Shown: positions 56,687 through 64,000 of the stretch, one piece after another
Layout: the number at the start of each line of letters is the position of its first letter
How positions within the stretch are numbered: the first letter of the stretch is position 1
NCBI GenBank assembly: GCA_017500825.1
Contig: JAFVYB010000080.1
Location: forward strand, 1 to 64,000
DNA: 64,000 nucleotides
Origin: Myxococcaceae bacterium
Lineage (GTDB): Bacteria > Myxococcota > Myxococcia > Myxococcales > UBA5297
Direction: 5' to 3'
Program-made: the position numbers and the translations under genes
Notes under the pieces: generated by a model
Told to the model about the DNA's origin: nothing
What the model saw: the letters and a program-made list of their open reading frames with translations, nothing else
Databases searched by the model: none

Positions 56687-56798
56687 GAGTAAGATTCAAA
56701 AAGAAACAAACAAACCTCAAAAATAACCTTGATGCGTTTCCTCATTTTAGCCTTTGAGGCGCCGCGAAAATTTTGGGCCTCAGCTCAAACCATCCTTG

Positions 56799-56828
56799 CG
56801 GGAGCGGATTCATTCCCTCCCGTTTTTT
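56799..56828 (+). terminator. Terminator-like hairpin in the ino1 leader
   Basis: CGGGAG at 56799-56804 pairs with CTCCCG at 56817-56822 and is followed by six T residues, 43 bp before ATG 56871. A second hairpin (GAGGC/GCCTC, about 56754-56781) lies just upstream. No plus-strand gene precedes it. Confidence 0.65.
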
Positions 56829-56870
56829 CGTCCGACCGTAACAACCGCTAAACGACAGAGGAAATCTCAG

Positions 56871-58223
56871 ATGACTCAGAGCAATGCATCGAACGCAAAG
56901 TCCGCCACCAAGCCCACGGGCAAGCTGGCGGTTCTCATCCCCGGCCTTGGCGCCGTCTCCACGACTTTCATCGCGGGCGTCGAGCTTGTCCGCAAAGGGC
57001 TCGGCAAGCCGATCGGCTCACTGACGCAGATGGGCACCGCGCGCCTGGGCAAGCGCACCGACAACAACACGGTGATGATCAAGGATCTCGTGCCGCTCGC
57101 CGGCCTCGACGATCTCGTCTTCGGCGCCTGGGATGTGGTCGGCGAGGACGCGCTCACGGTGGCCAAGCGCTCGGCGGTGCTCTCGGAGAAGGACATCGAC
57201 GGCGCAGCCGACCTGTTGCGCTCGATCAAGCCGCGTCCCGGCATTCACGATCCCGCCTATGTGCGCGAGCTGCCTGTGGACAACGCGATGAAGGCCGCGA
57301 CCCATGTCGAGCGCGTCGAGCAGATTCGCGCCGACATCCGCGAGTTCAAGAAGACGCTCGGCGCCGACCGCGCGGTCATGCTCTTCACCGCCTCCACCGA
57401 GAAGTTCCACCAGCCCGGCAAGAACCACGAGACGCTCAAGGATTTTGAGGCGGCGATCGAGGCCAACGACCCGTCGATCAGCCCGACCATGATCTACGTC
57501 TACGCCGGCATGAAGGAGGGCTGCCCCTTCATCAATGGAACGCCCAACTACTCGGTCGATCTGCCCGCGATTCAGGAACTGGCCAAAGAGCTCTGCCTGC
57601 CCATCGCCGGCAAGGACCTCAAGAGCGGCCAGACGATGATGAAGACGGTGCTCGCGCCCGCGCTCAAGGCGCGCCTGCTCGGCCTGCGCGGCTGGTTCAG
57701 CACCAACATTCTCGGCAACCGCGACGGCGAGGTGCTCAACGACCCGGAGGCCTTCCACTCCAAGGAGGTCACCAAGACGGGCGTTCTCGACACCATCCTC
57801 GTCGGCGAGGACTACCCGGACCTCTACTCGGACTACACGCACAAGGTTTCGATTCACTATTACAAGCCGCGCGGAGACGAGAAGGAAGGCTGGGACAACA
57901 TCGACCTCACCGGCTGGCTCGACTACCCGATGCAGATCAAGGTCAACTTCCTCTGCCGCGACTCGATCCTCGCCGCGCCGCTCTGCCTCGACCTCGTCCT
58001 CTTTATGGACTTCGCCATGCGCAACCACTGGCGCGGCATTCAGGAGTGGCTGTCGTTCTACTTCAAGTGCCCGATGGCGGCCCCTGGCCTCAGTCCAGAG
58101 CACGACCTCTTCATCCAGCTCACCAAGCTCAAGAACACGCTGCGCGTGGCCGCTGGCGAGGCGCCGATCACCCATCTCGGCCTTGAGTATTACGGCGATG
58201 ATCTGCCCATCTGCGTCCCCTGA
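56871..58223 (+). CDS. ino1: myo-Inositol-1-phosphate synthase
   Basis: NAD-dependent conversion of glucose 6-phosphate to myo-inositol 1-phosphate. 450 residues. The N-terminal Rossmann motif is GLGAVSTT at 25-32, and the catalytic region contains INGTPNYSVDLP, AGKDLKSGQT and NILGNRDG, all MIPS signatures. ATG 56871 has AGAGGAAA. It has its own leader hairpin and terminator, so it is a single-gene transcript, but the next gene downstream is a CDP-alcohol phosphatidyltransferase that could use its product. Confidence 0.96.
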   Translation: MTQSNASNAKSATKPTGKLAVLIPGLGAVSTTFIAGVELVRKGLGKPIGSLTQMGTARLGKRTDNNTVMIKDLVPLAGLDDLVFGAWDVVGEDALTVAKRSAVLSEKDIDGAADLLRSIKPRPGIHDPAYVRELPVDNAMKAATHVERVEQIRADIREFKKTLGADRAVMLFTASTEKFHQPGKNHETLKDFEAAIEANDPSISPTMIYVYAGMKEGCPFINGTPNYSVDLPAIQELAKELCLPIAGKDLKSGQTMMKTVLAPALKARLLGLRGWFSTNILGNRDGEVLNDPEAFHSKEVTKTGVLDTILVGEDYPDLYSDYTHKVSIHYYKPRGDEKEGWDNIDLTGWLDYPMQIKVNFLCRDSILAAPLCLDLVLFMDFAMRNHWRGIQEWLSFYFKCPMAAPGLSPEHDLFIQLTKLKNTLRVAAGEAPITHLGLEYYGDDLPICVP

Positions 58224-58283
58224 CGCCTGTGAGTCGGCCCGGGACTGTCTGAGTTCCGAGCGTGTTTGACCAAGCCGTCGAAG

Positions 58284-58317
58284 TCCGGGCGCGCCCCATG
58301 AGCCGCCCGGATTTTTT
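58284..58317 (+). terminator. Intrinsic terminator after ino1
   Basis: TCCGGGCG at 58284-58291 pairs with CGCCCGGA at 58304-58311, followed by six T residues, 60 bp past the ino1 stop. Confidence 0.92.
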
Positions 58318-58502
58318 GACGCGCCGAGCGAGGCCCCGGTCGGTGGCGCGCTCGATGAAACGTCGGCCGCTGGCGGCGGTTGTTGTCTGCCGCCGGTCGT
58401 TTTGAGGCCGAAAGCAGGAATCTGGCTGCTGGCGCTTGGAAGGCCTGTTCCGGTCTCGCGCCGCGCCTTTCGCCTGACGCGCCCCCGCGCGGGAGTCCCT
58501 CT

Positions 58503-59807
58503 ATGGAAACCCTCCTCAACCTCGTCACTGGCCGCGATCTGTCGCCCGAGCTGCGCGTCTGGTCGGCCCTGATGCCCGCCCTGCTCGTCAGCGCCTATTT
58601 CATCGTCGGGATGATCGTCTGGTCGATCAAATGCGCCCTGTTCGGTGTCGAGAAGGACGAGGAGACGCTCAAGCGCGGCAGCAGCGTGATCATGGGCTTT
58701 TACCTGAGGCACTATTACTTCTGGCTGATGAAACCCCTGTGGGGCTTCCTCTCGTGGGCCAGGGTGCCGCCGACCTGCATCACCACCTTTTCGGCCCTCG
58801 TCGGCCTGGGATCCGGATTCGCCGCGGCCGCCGGTCGCTTCGCGCTGGCCGGCTGGCTCTTCATCTTCTCGGGCATCCTCGACACCCTCGACGGCCGCAT
58901 CGCCCGTTCGCGCGGCCTGAGCACCCCCTGGGGCGCGGCCATCGACTCCACGCTCGACCGCTACGCCGACTTCGCCATCCTCATCGGCATGGCCTGGTAT
59001 TACCGGACCACCTGGGTGCTCATCCCCGCGCTCCTGATGATGATGGGCGTGGCGCTCGTTCCCTACATCCGGGCCCGCGGCGAGGCGCTCGGCGTCAAGG
59101 TCACTGGCGGCCTCATGCAGCGCGCCGAACGCACCATGTATCTGGGCGTGTCGCTGGCGCTCAGCCCTGTTCTGGAGGCGATCTTCTGGCCCGAGGCCGA
59201 GATGCCGATGCACTGGATGACGGTGGTCGCGCTCGTCGTCATTGCCCTGATGACCAACTGGACCGCCCTCACCCGCCTCTACACGCTGGTCGACGCCCTG
59301 AAGCGCGGCAAGAACGCGACGGTCGAGGCGGAGCGCGCGGCCAAGGGCGAGCGGGGCTTTTTCCAGAAGCTCGGACTCAACGCGATGGCCGCCATCCTCG
59401 CCACCGTGGCCGACTTTTTGGTGGTGCTGGCGCTGGTGGAAACGGTTTCGGCCGTCCGCCTTTCGCCCGGCGTGGCCACCGCTCTCGGCTGCGTCGTCGG
59501 CGGCATCCTCAATTTTACCCTCAACCGCGTCGTCACCTTCCGCTCCAGGGACGCGCTGGCGCCACAGATCGGCCGCTACTTCGGCGTCAGCCTTGGCTCC
59601 TTGATCCTCAACGCGTTCGGCGTGGCCCTCGTCACGTCGCTGCCCGAGGTCGACTACCGCGTCTCGTGGTGGCTCGTGCGCGGCCTCGTCTTCCTCCTCT
59701 GGAACTACCCGCTGCACAGCTCCTACGTCTTTGGTGACGAAAAGCCCGCCGAGGCGCCCGCCATGAGCGCCGACAGCGCCCCGACCCCGGACAAGGCGGC
59801 CACCTGA
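58503..59807 (+). CDS. CDP-alcohol phosphatidyltransferase fused to a GtrA-like domain
   Basis: 434 residues. The first two thirds form a CDP-alcohol phosphatidyltransferase with its complete active-site motif: Asp127, Asp130-Gly131, Ala134-Arg135, Gly144, Asp148, Asp152. From about residue 280 a second set of four membrane helices (LNAMAAILATVADFLVVLAL, GGILNFTLNRVVTFRS) matches the GtrA family, whose members help move lipid-linked sugars across membranes. With ino1 next door, the acceptor may be inositol phosphate. ATG 58503. The frame stays open upstream without protein character. Confidence 0.88.
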   Translation: METLLNLVTGRDLSPELRVWSALMPALLVSAYFIVGMIVWSIKCALFGVEKDEETLKRGSSVIMGFYLRHYYFWLMKPLWGFLSWARVPPTCITTFSALVGLGSGFAAAAGRFALAGWLFIFSGILDTLDGRIARSRGLSTPWGAAIDSTLDRYADFAILIGMAWYYRTTWVLIPALLMMMGVALVPYIRARGEALGVKVTGGLMQRAERTMYLGVSLALSPVLEAIFWPEAEMPMHWMTVVALVVIALMTNWTALTRLYTLVDALKRGKNATVEAERAAKGERGFFQKLGLNAMAAILATVADFLVVLALVETVSAVRLSPGVATALGCVVGGILNFTLNRVVTFRSRDALAPQIGRYFGVSLGSLILNAFGVALVTSLPEVDYRVSWWLVRGLVFLLWNYPLHSSYVFGDEKPAEAPAMSADSAPTPDKAAT

Positions 59808-59898
59808 GCCGCTGTCCTGCCGCAGCCTGTTTCTTTCGCAACGCCGCGCCACCTCAACCGCTGCCTCCCACAGCCCGCGCGCCCGACTCCCGAATCCC

Positions 59899-62379
59899 AT
59901 GTCCGAACCAAGATGGATGTCCAAGGTGGACGCGTCCGTTGGCCGTGCCGCCGCCTGGTCCTTTCGCAACGCCGGTCGCGCTCTGGCCGCAGCCCTCCTC
60001 CTCACCCTCGTCGGCTTCGGCCTCTCCACGCGCCTGTCGCTCAACGCCGACATGTCGAGCCTCTTGCCCGAGACGTTCGAGAGCGTGCGCGACCTCTCGG
60101 TGCTGCGCGAGAAGTTCGGCGGCATGGGTTACGTCGTGGTGGTCGGCCAGGGCGCCTCGCCCGAGGATTTGCGCCGCTTCGCCGACGATTTGGCGCCCAG
60201 GCTGGAGGCGCTCGAAGGCATCCGCTTCGTCGAATACCAGCGCGCCAGCGATTTCTTCGAGGACCGCGCCCTCTACTACCTGTCGACCGAAGACCTGTCG
60301 GAGGTGCAGCGCCGCCTCAAGGAACGCGAGCGCTACGAGCGGCGGATGAAAAACCCGATGTTCGTCAGGCTCGACGACGAACCGGCGCCCTCGATCGACT
60401 TTGGCGACATCACGGCCAAATACGCCGGCAGCTCCCACGACCGCCTGGCGGGTGACGGCGAGCGCTACTACCTCGACCCGAGCGCGCGCGTTGTCGCCCT
60501 GCTCGCCAAGCCGGCCGGCACCTCGGTCGACCTCGACTACGCCAAACAGATCGTCGGCCGCGTCGAGGACTTCGTGGCGTCGCAGGACCTCTCGGCCTAC
60601 CCGGGGCTCACAGTCGCCACCACCGGCACCTACAAGAAGAAGATCGACCAGCAGACGCAGATCACCGCCGACGTGGCCTGGGCCAGCTCCATCGCCCTGC
60701 TGCTGATGGTCCTCTATCTGGCGTTCCACTTCCGCAGCCTGATGGGCATCGCGCTCGTGCTCGCGCCGACCACCGCCGGCCTCTTGTGGACCTACGGCTT
60801 CGTGGCCGTCGCCTATGGCCAGGTGAACCTTTTGACAGCCTTCCTCGGCGCCATCCTCGGCGGTCTCGGCACCGAACACGGCATCCACCTCTATGGCCGC
60901 TATTCGAGCCTGCGCGCCGAAGGACGGTCGGGCGAGTCCGCCATGCGCGAGGCCTTCACCCACACCGGCGGCGCCGCGCTCATCTCGTCGATCGTCGCCG
61001 CGCTCACCTTCGCCAGCCTGGCCATCTCCGACTTCAGCGCCTTCCGCGAGTTCGGCGTGATCTCCGCCGTCGGCATGATCGTCCTCGTCTTCGCCTACAT
61101 CCTCATCTACCCGGCGATCATCGGCCTGTGCGCCCGCCTCGGCTGGGACCCCAAACCGCGTCAGGCCGTCACAGGCGCCTCCTCCGCGCTCTCCCGAATC
61201 CTGCCGCGTCGCCCGCGCGCCTTTGGCCTCGTCATCGCCGTGGCGCTCGCGCTCCTGATGGTCCGCGTCCCCCACACGCGCTTCGACTACGACCTGGGGA
61301 CGCTCGAAGACAGCACCCTTCCCTCGTTTCAGCTCGACCGGAAGGTCAATGAGCTGCTCGGCTACTCGCAGACGCCCGTCGTCCTCTTCACCGATTCGAG
61401 CGACGAGGAACGCGCGCTCGTCGAACAGCTCAACGCGCGCAAAGAAGCGCTGGGCACCGCCTCCACCATCGATTTCGCCGCGGCGCTCGACGACCTGGTG
61501 CCGCCCGCGCAGGAAGAAAAGCGGGCCATCCTCGACAAGATCGACAAGACGCTCAGCCGGGTGAAGCGCGAGTCGCTCGACAGCGAGGCTCAGGAGGGAT
61601 TCGACGCGCTCAGGCGCATGAGTCAGGCGCAGCCCTTCACGCGCGTCGACATCCCCGCGTCGATCCGCCGCCAGTTCGAGGGCGTGGCCGGCGACGGCGG
61701 TTTTGTTCTCGCCTTTCCGGGCATCAGCCTGGGCGACGGCGAACGGGTGACCATGCTGGCCCGCGAAGTGCGCGATCTCGAATTGCCCAAAAGAGACTCT
61801 CAGAGCGCCCCGACGCGCGTCTCGGCCGTGGGCGAGGCGCTGATTCTGGCCGACATCATCGACATGGTGACGCGCGAGGCCCTGCCCGTTCTCAGCGCCG
61901 CCATCCTCTTCGTGCTCGTCGCGCTGTGGATCACCCTGGGCAAACTCAGGCTGGCGCTCGTCTGCCTGCTGCCCACCGTCGTCTCCATCCTCGGACTCGT
62001 CGGGCTGATGGATTACGCGGGCATCGAGTTCAATTTCCTCAACATCGTCGCCATCCCGGTCCTCATCGGCACCACCGTCGACGCCGGCGTCCACCTCGTC
62101 ACGCGCCTCGGCGGCACGGGCGGCGGGGAGAATTTCAGCGCCATCTACGCCGAGACCGGACGCGCCATCTGCGGCGGCCTCATCACCAGCGCCGTCGGCT
62201 TTGGCGCCATGATCATCGCCGACCACCCAGGCCTGGCCTCGCTGGGACGCCTGACCATCCTCGGCTTCTCGCTCAACCTGGTGGTGATGCTGCTCGCATT
62301 CCCGACGCTCCTCCTGCTGCGCCGGAAACGCCCCGCGAGCGCCTCGCCCAACACCCCGGAAAACGTTCCAACCTCTTGA
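59899..62379 (+). CDS. RND/MMPL-family exporter (HpnN-like)
   Basis: 826 residues with about twelve membrane helices in two halves, each preceded by a large periplasmic loop. The segment GAILGGLGTEHGIHLYGRY and its counterpart PVLIGTTVDAGVHLVTRLGG in the second half are the paired RND signatures of MMPL/HpnN-like lipid exporters. ATG 59899 has only a weak ribosome site; ATG 59917 is possible. It is followed 45 bp later by an MlaC-like gene, an arrangement like hpnN with hpnM, and it lies 91 bp after the CDP-alcohol phosphatidyltransferase gene. Confidence 0.88.
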   Translation: MSEPRWMSKVDASVGRAAAWSFRNAGRALAAALLLTLVGFGLSTRLSLNADMSSLLPETFESVRDLSVLREKFGGMGYVVVVGQGASPEDLRRFADDLAPRLEALEGIRFVEYQRASDFFEDRALYYLSTEDLSEVQRRLKERERYERRMKNPMFVRLDDEPAPSIDFGDITAKYAGSSHDRLAGDGERYYLDPSARVVALLAKPAGTSVDLDYAKQIVGRVEDFVASQDLSAYPGLTVATTGTYKKKIDQQTQITADVAWASSIALLLMVLYLAFHFRSLMGIALVLAPTTAGLLWTYGFVAVAYGQVNLLTAFLGAILGGLGTEHGIHLYGRYSSLRAEGRSGESAMREAFTHTGGAALISSIVAALTFASLAISDFSAFREFGVISAVGMIVLVFAYILIYPAIIGLCARLGWDPKPRQAVTGASSALSRILPRRPRAFGLVIAVALALLMVRVPHTRFDYDLGTLEDSTLPSFQLDRKVNELLGYSQTPVVLFTDSSDEERALVEQLNARKEALGTASTIDFAAALDDLVPPAQEEKRAILDKIDKTLSRVKRESLDSEAQEGFDALRRMSQAQPFTRVDIPASIRRQFEGVAGDGGFVLAFPGISLGDGERVTMLAREVRDLELPKRDSQSAPTRVSAVGEALILADIIDMVTREALPVLSAAILFVLVALWITLGKLRLALVCLLPTVVSILGLVGLMDYAGIEFNFLNIVAIPVLIGTTVDAGVHLVTRLGGTGGGENFSAIYAETGRAICGGLITSAVGFGAMIIADHPGLASLGRLTILGFSLNLVVMLLAFPTLLLLRRKRPASASPNTPENVPTS

Positions 62380-62424: not shown

Positions 62425-63120
62425 ATGCTCACCCAGACACTGGCCCTGGCCGCGCTTCTTTCCGCCGCCCCCGCCGCGCCCGCGGCCACGCCTTCCACCC
62501 CGGCCGCCGCGCCCGCCCAGAGCGCGCCCGCGTCAACCCAGGCCCCCGCCGTCGATCCGGCCAAACAGGCGGCCATCGTTCGCGCCCACACCGACCGGCT
62601 GATCGACGCCTTCAAGCGGGTCAAGGAAGACGACGGCAAGCTCGGCGCCGCCGACAAGGCCCAAAACGCCAAGGCCTACGCCGAACTCGACGAGCTGCTC
62701 GCGCGCGAACACTTCACGGCGCTCGCCATCGCCCCGCGTGAGGACAAGTTCAGTGCCGACGAGCTCAAGGCCTTCAAAGCCGAGTTCTGGGATGTGGTGC
62801 AGCGCGTCGCCTACCCGGGTTCGGGCGCCTTCTTCCGCGAGGGCGAGGTCAAGATCGGCGCGCCGACGAACAAGGGCGACGTGTGGACGATCGAGCTGAA
62901 CGCCTACGTTCCCAGCGAGGATTTGGAGACGGTGGTCGGGTTGCAATGGCGGGGCGGCGACTCGATGCGCATCGTCGACGTGCTCTTCGACGGCGACTCG
63001 CTCGTGCGCGACTACCAGAACCAATTCGCGCGCATCGTCGACAAGGACGGCGCCAAAGGCCTGTTGAAACTCCTCGCCGACAAGCGCGCCGAGCTCTCCA
63101 AGACGGCAGAGGCCAAATGA
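62425..63120 (+). CDS. MlaC/HpnM-like periplasmic lipid carrier
   Basis: 231 residues. The signal peptide and a Pro/Ala-rich linker (about 1-50) precede a domain of MlaC (Ttg2D) type, whose ending is typical: IVDVLFDGDSLVRDYQNQFA, then a closing helix. Such proteins shuttle phospholipids through the periplasm; HpnM does so for hopanoids. ATG 62425 has AAGGAGA. It follows the RND exporter by 45 bp, and its stop overlaps the next gene's start as ATGA, so the two are coupled. Confidence 0.82.
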   Translation: MLTQTLALAALLSAAPAAPAATPSTPAAAPAQSAPASTQAPAVDPAKQAAIVRAHTDRLIDAFKRVKEDDGKLGAADKAQNAKAYAELDELLAREHFTALAIAPREDKFSADELKAFKAEFWDVVQRVAYPGSGAFFREGEVKIGAPTNKGDVWTIELNAYVPSEDLETVVGLQWRGGDSMRIVDVLFDGDSLVRDYQNQFARIVDKDGAKGLLKLLADKRAELSKTAEAK

Positions 63121-64000
63121 GCGGCCCGATGTCATCGCGCTTGAGTCTGAAGGCGCTCGCCCTGGCGGCCCTTCTCTCCATGCCGGCCGCCGCCCTGGCC
63201 CAGAGCGAGGCGCAGAAGCTCGACCTCACGACGCCGATGCCGCGGGTGACCCAAGGCGTCGACGCGCCATCGACCACTTCGGGCGACGCGTTGCCGGCAG
63301 GCCCCTACACGGTCGAGCAGTGCGTCGAGATCGCCGTGCGCGCGAGCGGCAAGGTGGCCGAGGCAGAGGGGCTCGTCTCCGAGTGGAAGGCGCGCCTCTA
63401 CGAGGTCGAGGCCAACATCTATCCCAAGCTCCAGGGTCTGGCCCTGGCCGCGCCCATGTTCACCGTCGAGGCCAAAGACGGCGCGGACGTGCTCGGCGGC
63501 GTGAAGCGCAAGTGGAAGTCGATCTCCGACTGGGGGCCCTACTTCCGCCTCGAACTGTTGCTCGTGCAGCCCATCTTCACCTTTGGCCGCCTCTCGGCCG
63601 GCGAGGACGCCGCGCGCGCCCGCCTCCAGGTCGAACAGGCGCGGGTCGAACAGGCGCGCAATGCCGTCGCTCTTGAGACGCGCAAATTCTACTACCTGCA
63701 CCTCTACGCGAAGAGCGTGCTCCCCCTCCTTGAGAACGCCCGCAAGACGCTCGACGGCGTGCTCGAACAGGCCCGGGCCATGCACGCGGAAGCCTCGGGC
63801 AAGGTCTCGACCGCGGATCTGATGAAGCTGGAGGTGGCTTCCATCGAGGTCGACAAGTTCCTCGTCGAGGCCAATACCGGCGCCGGGCTCTCGCTCGCCG
63901 CGCTCAGGCACACGATGGGGCTTCTGCCAGACGCGCCGCTCACCCTCGCCGACACGCGCCTGCCCAAAGAGCCGCCCGCCTCGCCAGCGCTTTCCGAGCT
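63117..64000 (+). CDS. TolC-like outer-membrane efflux protein (partial)
   Basis: At least 294 residues; the gene continues beyond the window, so it is partial at its 3' end. Signal peptide ending AAALAQ. The N-terminal half of an outer-membrane-factor repeat follows: YTVEQCVEIAV, helical coiled-coil segments, and LLVQPIFTFGRLSAGEDAA, which is the characteristic beta-strand-to-helix signature of TolC-type proteins. ATG 63117 overlaps the MlaC-like stop by four bases. It completes an exporter, periplasmic carrier and outer-membrane channel set. Confidence 0.85.
   Translation, partial: MSGPMSSRLSLKALALAALLSMPAAALAQSEAQKLDLTTPMPRVTQGVDAPSTTSGDALPAGPYTVEQCVEIAVRASGKVAEAEGLVSEWKARLYEVEANIYPKLQGLALAAPMFTVEAKDGADVLGGVKRKWKSISDWGPYFRLELLLVQPIFTFGRLSAGEDAARARLQVEQARVEQARNAVALETRKFYYLHLYAKSVLPLLENARKTLDGVLEQARAMHAEASGKVSTADLMKLEVASIEVDKFLVEANTGAGLSLAALRHTMGLLPDAPLTLADTRLPKEPPASPALSE

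Follow-up and report, generated by a model that had tools for sequence, protein, structure and literature searches.

A phosphatidylinositol-phosphate synthase-like enzyme fused to a GtrA domain beside inositol-lipid and lipid-export genes in Myxococcota

To our knowledge, no mechanism has been established for moving phosphatidylinositol (PI) and phosphoinositol-ceramide across the bacterial inner membrane, and within the inositol-lipid cluster of Bacteroides the GtrA gene is an orphan. GtrA and GtcA proteins have been proposed to flip polyprenyl-phosphate sugars (PMC7389260, PMC7775120), and R95 and N132 are essential in Listeria GtcA (PMC7389260). The membrane domain of the dolichyl-phosphate-mannose synthase PfDPMS has the same fold as GtrA; the lipid chain of its product rests on TMH4, and a flippase role was not demonstrated (PMC5526996). 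When the GtrA-motif gene BT_1524 of Bacteroides thetaiotaomicron was deleted, inositol lipids including phosphoinositol dihydroceramide were still visible and normal by TLC (PMC9246714). In the phosphatidylinositol-phosphate (PIP) synthase (PIPS) of M. tuberculosis, R155 and R195 bind inositol phosphate, and K135 is also cited (PMC4634129). Ceramide phosphoinositol has been reported in Myxococcus xanthus (Lorenzen 2014, as cited in PMC9246714).

The window analysed here is a stretch of 64,000 nucleotides from a Myxococcaceae bacterium (contig JAFVYB010000080.1), in which one gene, designated PIPS::GtrA, joins a PIPS-like enzyme half to a GtrA half. Its features and neighbours are as follows.

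56754-58223, + strand: myo-inositol-phosphate synthase (MIPS), 489-aa frame (PF07994, E 1e-88; PF01658, E 1e-31)
58503-59807, + strand: PIPS::GtrA fusion gene, 434 aa, ATG at 58503, stop at 59807
58545-58643, + strand: extra N-terminal membrane helix, aa 15-47 (AlphaFold2 pLDDT ~88-95; hydrophobicity)
58698-59312, + strand: CDP-alcohol phosphatidyltransferase/PIP-synthase domain, aa 66-270 (PF01066; NCBIfam; Foldseek 6h59, 6h5a, 6wmv, 5d92)
59313-59357, + strand: inter-domain linker, aa 271-285 (helix gap; pLDDT dip to 55)
59358-59732, + strand: GtrA domain with four membrane helices, aa 286-410 (PF04138; Foldseek to the dolichyl-phosphate-mannose synthase membrane domain)
59899-62379, + strand: RND/MMPL transporter, HpnN/BstA-like, 826 aa (PF03176, E 2.5e-27)
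62425-63120, + strand: MlaC-type periplasmic lipid carrier, 231 aa (PF05494, E 1.3e-11)
63117-64000, continuing past the window, + strand: outer-membrane efflux protein (OEP, TolC-type; PF02321, E 1.2e-10 for the part in the window)

The MIPS gene lies directly upstream of the fusion, and its true start is probably an ATG ~40 codons inside the frame, near 56871. The OEP gene overlaps the MlaC stop codon (ATGA) and ends at ~64586 in window numbering, as read in L051. HpnN and BstA are the top NCBIfam matches of the RND gene, which scores 283 bits against the HpnN profile TIGR03480, below its curated cut-off of 752. All three genomes of the window's genus keep MIPS, PIPS::GtrA, RND, MlaC and OEP; no homologue of the Aur1-like (phosphoinositol-ceramide-synthase type) or lipocalin genes of related loci was found in them. 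No PIP phosphatase was found beside the fusion operon, and searches of the window's own genome found no lipocalin, Aur1-like or DSP-phosphatase gene. On the minus strand, a frame of 1035 aa (57018-60125) is open opposite the last part of MIPS, the fusion and the first part of the RND gene; it has the appearance of a shadow frame in high-G+C DNA rather than of a gene.

The start codon at 58503 is immediately preceded by a ribosome-binding-like GGGAG. Although the frame is open further upstream, the protein starts close to this Met in every clade-I relative aligned, so that the assigned start is right. PF01066 matches aa 90-243 with 55.7 bits (cut-off 22, E 9.7e-15) and PF04138 matches aa 295-410 with 52.7 bits (cut-off 26.1, E 6.1e-14), and each half gave the same Pfam match when scanned separately. 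All positions of the motif D127-x2-DG-x2-AR-x8-G-x3-D-x3-D152 are present (aa 127-152). A single AlphaFold2 model (pLDDT 85.5, pTM 0.73) contains 11 predicted membrane helices, including the extra N-terminal one; TM6 of the enzyme half ends at ~270, and the GtrA helices span residues 286-314, 322-345, 352-378 and 385-409.

The same fusion, at 45-69% identity, is present in many independent assemblies. Among 146 sampled Myxococcota genomes, 64 carry it (two as contig-end pieces that cross the junction), 6 have adjacent PIPS and GtrA genes, 12 have PIPS alone and 7 have weak or single-domain matches only. The best 80 GTDB loci include fusions from Myxococcus, Corallococcus, Pyxidicoccus, Polyangium and many Myxococcota MAGs; three loci labelled otherwise (L056, L065 and L066) group within the myxobacterial clade and seem to carry a wrong label or to have been misbinned. 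One of these, L056, titled Comamonas sp. KCTC 72670, is a Myxococcus-like locus with a branch length of 0.005 in the PIPS tree and probably comes from a mislabelled genome. PIPS and GtrA are separate and adjacent in Anaeromyxobacteraceae-like genomes and in Bacteroidales (L121, L125 and L127), the latter in the BT_1523/BT_1524 arrangement, and no GtrA was found near the Gemmatimonadota, Chloroflexota and archaeal PIPS genes of the locus set. The protein family is represented in sequenced genomes and common in Myxococcaceae; in the openly licensed literature we found no paper describing the fusion, the only related one being PMC9246714.

An assembly error or frameshift joining two genes, or a chance match to GtrA, was considered as a rival reading, and PIPS and GtrA do stand as two genes in some lineages. 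Nothing else speaks for such an artefact, which we consider extremely improbable. A false join is ruled out by the recurrence of the fusion in those 64 genomes and many independent assemblies and by the third-position G+C, which stays at 0.87-0.98 across the entire frame and therefore gives no hint that the reading frame shifts where the domains meet; a lucky GtrA match is ruled out by the several fusion members that pass the curated cut-offs, and a single confident structure model spans both halves. The preliminary description, made from the sequence alone, had proposed one uninterrupted frame joining a CDP-alcohol phosphatidyltransferase with a full active site to a four-helix GtrA-like segment, with the junction near residues 260-290. 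All of these points are borne out by the domain searches and the model, and the co-occurrence survey adds that the pairing is standard in Myxococcaceae.

The enzyme half is predicted, with good support, to be a PIPS. Its top three NCBIfam families are all inositol-phosphate synthases (E 8e-35 to 2e-27), with scores below the equivalog cut-offs: archaetidylinositol-phosphate synthase (NF040950, 120 versus 180 bits), BT1523-type PIP synthase (NF052561, 99 versus 350) and PIP synthase (NF045883, 96 versus 170). The remaining CDP-alcohol transferase profiles score below 30 bits, except for the Thermococcales inositol-phosphate enzyme; assignment as a PGP or PS synthase was rejected on the much lower scores of those profiles. 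In both sequence and fold, the closest solved proteins are the PIP synthases 6h53, 6h59, 6h5a, 6wm5, 6wmv and 5d92. R155 and R195 of the M. tuberculosis enzyme correspond to identical residues, R210 and R258, and K135 corresponds to R190; none of the three varies among the 26 sequences of alignment A4. S132, counted with them among the inositol-phosphate-binding residues, is replaced by P187 in the fusion and is Ser in family f7. Because this half is PIPS-like in sequence, fold and inositol-phosphate-binding arginines, its lipid can be named as PI or its phosphate, and PIP would be its product.

For the GtrA half, Foldseek returned the membrane domain of dolichyl-phosphate-mannose synthase (9ep0, 5mm1 and 5mlz; prob 0.91-0.92), with E-values that are weak because the match covers a short part of the query. 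By motif spacing, rather than by direct alignment with GtcA, the essential R95 and N132 correspond to R358 and N401, of which R358 is invariant and N401 is conserved in >90% of alignment A4. The fused GtrA is the only one found in the window's genome (assembly 89% complete) and in G002, G004 and G045; these four genomes therefore seem to be without a separate sugar-type GtrA. In a genome of the same family as the window (G003; L033:11585-12805, + strand), the GtrA half has decayed, and the equivalents of N337, N341 and N401 are gone.

The structural match also suits a reading in which the GtrA half is a structural or product-handling module and no flippase, stabilizing PIPS, holding the lipid tail or docking PIPS to a phosphatase, lipocalin or RND protein, as DPM2/DPM3-like membrane parts do in dolichyl-phosphate-mannose synthase. 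In PfDPMS the corresponding domain holds the product's chain on TMH4, with no flippase role demonstrated, and the BT_1524 deletion had no visible synthesis defect. Conservation of the GtcA-essential Arg and Asn argues against such a role, as do the many PIPS relatives that stand without GtrA (55 loci with none nearby). Chiefly because of the BT_1524 result, we regard this reading as a substantial possibility that nonetheless falls short of being probable.

In a tree of 96 PIPS domains, the label 'fused' requires at least two changes on well-supported branches, so that at least two origins of the fusion are forced on this sequence-based tree. Fused clade 1 comprises the window, Myxococcaceae and Polyangiaceae, and fused clade 2, family f7, is nested with loci in which the two genes are separate and adjacent. 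In the f7 proteins, a third part of ~350 aa follows a fifth helix, giving triple fusions (PIPS::GtrA::double-lipocalin, family f7, ~775-820 aa) at four loci.

L039:7320-9653, - strand: triple fusion
L040:6895-9264, - strand: triple fusion
L041:7025-9421, - strand: triple fusion
L050:8610-10928, + strand: triple fusion

In L039, the next genes encode a class-III aminotransferase, an RND transporter and an Aur1-like PAP2_3 protein. A free-standing lipocalin-like gene that adjoins the fusion in Myxococcaceae, G004 and G061 is a homologue of this third part (hhalign 97.8%); the lipocalin search gave f7 matches at E 6.6e-17 and 2.4e-11, and the model is a confident double lipocalin (pLDDT 91) near AttH-type proteins. 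If the GtrA domain is N-in/C-in, the extra helix would place the lipocalin in the periplasm. Filing it as Svf1 was rejected, since the Pfam matches are weak (best 6.4e-06, in 4 of 12 members), the single displayed score is under the cut-off and the solved structures closest in fold are double lipocalins of the AttH type, enzymes among them; a ceramide-carrier role is only a lead. A lipocalin borne by the GtrA domain is also what a scaffold would show. At another locus (L079:5947-7668, + strand), PIPS is fused straight to an Aur1-like PAP2_3 domain without GtrA; as its PSLH motif reads PSLQ, this second domain may be altered or inactive.

The repeated fusion also bears on the reading that the substrate of the GtrA half is an unrelated polyprenyl-phosphate sugar, which it flips, and that the fusion reflects no more than co-expression for the envelope. 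Although this matches the role proposed for GtrA proteins (PMC7389260, PMC7775120), PIPS and GtrA were joined at least twice, the neighbours are inositol-lipid genes in both Myxococcota and Bacteroidales, and three of the five GtrA genes without an adjacent PIPS lie far from the coupled ones in what is a weak GtrA tree. In that tree, 129 columns are too few to resolve a PIPS-coupled subfamily, and two genes that lack a neighbouring PIPS group with the coupled GtrA genes. We judge the sugar reading improbable.

Gene neighbourhoods were compared between 49 GtrA-coupled and 55 uncoupled PIPS loci, a set with varying flank lengths and a few near-duplicate loci. Aur1-like PAP2_3 genes are nearby in 37 of the 49 coupled loci versus 2 of the 55 uncoupled ones, and the same bias holds for RND (33/49 versus 3/55), lipocalin (22/49 versus 0/55) and MlaC genes (12/49 versus 0/55), with Fisher p values of 3e-15 to 5e-5 for the four classes when relatedness of the loci is ignored. 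The sole NCBIfam match of the Aur1-like gene is phosphoinositol dihydroceramide synthase (NF052609; E 1e-41 to 4e-55, under the cut-off). It occurs in 60 of the 146 Myxococcota genomes, all of them with coupled GtrA (60 of 70 coupled and 0 of 12 PIPS-alone genomes, phylogeny ignored). In G008 and G023, the coupled PIPS copy is accompanied by RND and MlaC, which the solitary copy of the same genome lacks. A Myxococcaceae-type operon (L037:5194-10264, + strand) is possibly a complete myxobacterial inositol-ceramide gene set: it contains MIPS, Aur1-like PAP2_3, PIPS::GtrA and lipocalin genes and, as a candidate PIP phosphatase, a phosphatase gene of the DSP type.

Coupling thus follows the export and periplasm-side genes rather than PIPS itself, which is a further argument against a purely structural GtrA half. 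The preliminary description had suggested that the fused protein makes a lipid and flips it, in keeping with the exporter genes downstream. The tie to those genes is upheld by the linkage counts and by the recurrence of the order PIPS::GtrA-RND-MlaC-OEP in another family of the phylum (G071, L159), and both domains stand; the flipping itself is still a conjecture.

In the mechanism that we propose, the N-terminal PIPS of this two-domain inner-membrane protein would combine CDP-diacylglycerol (or an ether analogue) with the inositol phosphate that the upstream MIPS provides, giving PIP on the cytoplasmic face; the GtrA half would take PIP, or PI after dephosphorylation, and aid its passage to the periplasmic leaflet; and the products of the RND-MlaC-OEP genes would then deliver the inositol lipid to the outer membrane. 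Most relatives would also use this lipid to supply the phosphoinositol-ceramide synthase, a step absent in the window's genus. Because the later steps (Aur1-like enzyme, MlaC, lipocalin and exporter) would take place on the periplasmic side, the lipid has to cross the membrane, and GtrA would be the best-placed candidate for this crossing. In favour of the proposal we count MIPS adjacency, the PIPS-type residues, at least two fusions, the triple fusion in four loci, the linkage to RND, Aur1-like and lipocalin genes and the GtcA-essential Arg/Asn. Against it stand the BT_1524 deletion, the PfDPMS domain, the decayed GtrA of L033, L079 without GtrA, the missed NCBIfam cut-offs and the failure to find a PIP phosphatase nearby. 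The strongest counter-evidence to the crossing step is the BT_1524 deletion with its inositol lipids unchanged by TLC, which argues against GtrA being essential for phosphoinositol-ceramide synthesis; TLC of total lipids says nothing on leaflet or outer-membrane distribution, and redundancy is possible. Built on domains, binding residues, convergent fusion and linkage seen in sequence and structure, the whole proposal of PIP synthesis, GtrA-aided crossing and RND-MlaC-OEP export seems to us evenly balanced between right and wrong.

Its most specific form is more tentative. The GtrA half might be a dedicated PI(P) flippase fused to the synthase of its substrate, which would make it the first GtrA with a glycerophospholipid substrate (we found no report of GtrA flippase activity on a glycerophospholipid) and would fill in the inner-to-outer-leaflet step that is missing from bacterial inositol-lipid and inositol-sphingolipid assembly, with the periplasmic lipocalin or RND-MlaC receiving the lipid. 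The repeated, independent PIPS::GtrA fusion, in one lineage with a predicted periplasmic double-lipocalin, names a likely substrate for this GtrA group and means that GtrA domains may handle substrates other than polyprenyl-phosphate sugars. The pairing beside lipid-export genes suggests that inositol lipids reach the outer envelope by a dedicated route, and the fusion makes the crossing question testable in the genetically tractable Myxococcus.

Compared with known systems, the enzyme half shares its fold, motif and inositol-phosphate arginines with the mycobacterial and Renibacterium PgsA1 (6h53, 6h59, 6wm5 and 5d92). At ~25% identity, the actinobacterial enzymes differ in S132 (P187 in the fusion) and P153 (A208), and have neither a GtrA half nor a match to the extra N-terminal helix. 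The fusion has in common with the GtrA/GtcA family (PF04138) the four helices, a PF04138 score above the cut-off and the GtcA-essential Arg and Asn, whereas the known partners of that family are polyprenyl-phosphate glycosyltransferases and the partner here is a phospholipid synthase. The Pyrococcus dolichyl-phosphate-mannose synthase (5mlz, 5mm1 and 9ep0) likewise combines a lipid-product enzyme with a GtrA-type four-helix membrane domain, but its catalytic half is a cytosolic GT-A glycosyltransferase, in contrast to the membrane-embedded CDP-alcohol transferase of the fusion. The HpnN/HpnM hopanoid and BstA sterol transport sets also pair an RND transporter with an MlaC-type carrier; the window's set scores under the HpnN/BstA curated cut-offs and is tied to inositol-lipid genes. 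The closest arrangement is BT_1522-BT_1526 of B. thetaiotaomicron, where MIPS, PIP synthase and a GtrA-motif membrane protein are clustered as in the window (PMC9246714). Its phosphoinositol dihydroceramide synthase has a counterpart in the window's relatives, with none found in the window's genus. PIPS (BT_1523) and GtrA (BT_1524) are separate genes in Bacteroides, and GtrA is upstream of PIPS in the Bacteroidales loci examined, whereas the window encodes one protein. Finally, the Bacteroides cluster has a PgpA-type phosphatase, and in the window an RND-MlaC-OEP set lies downstream of the fusion.
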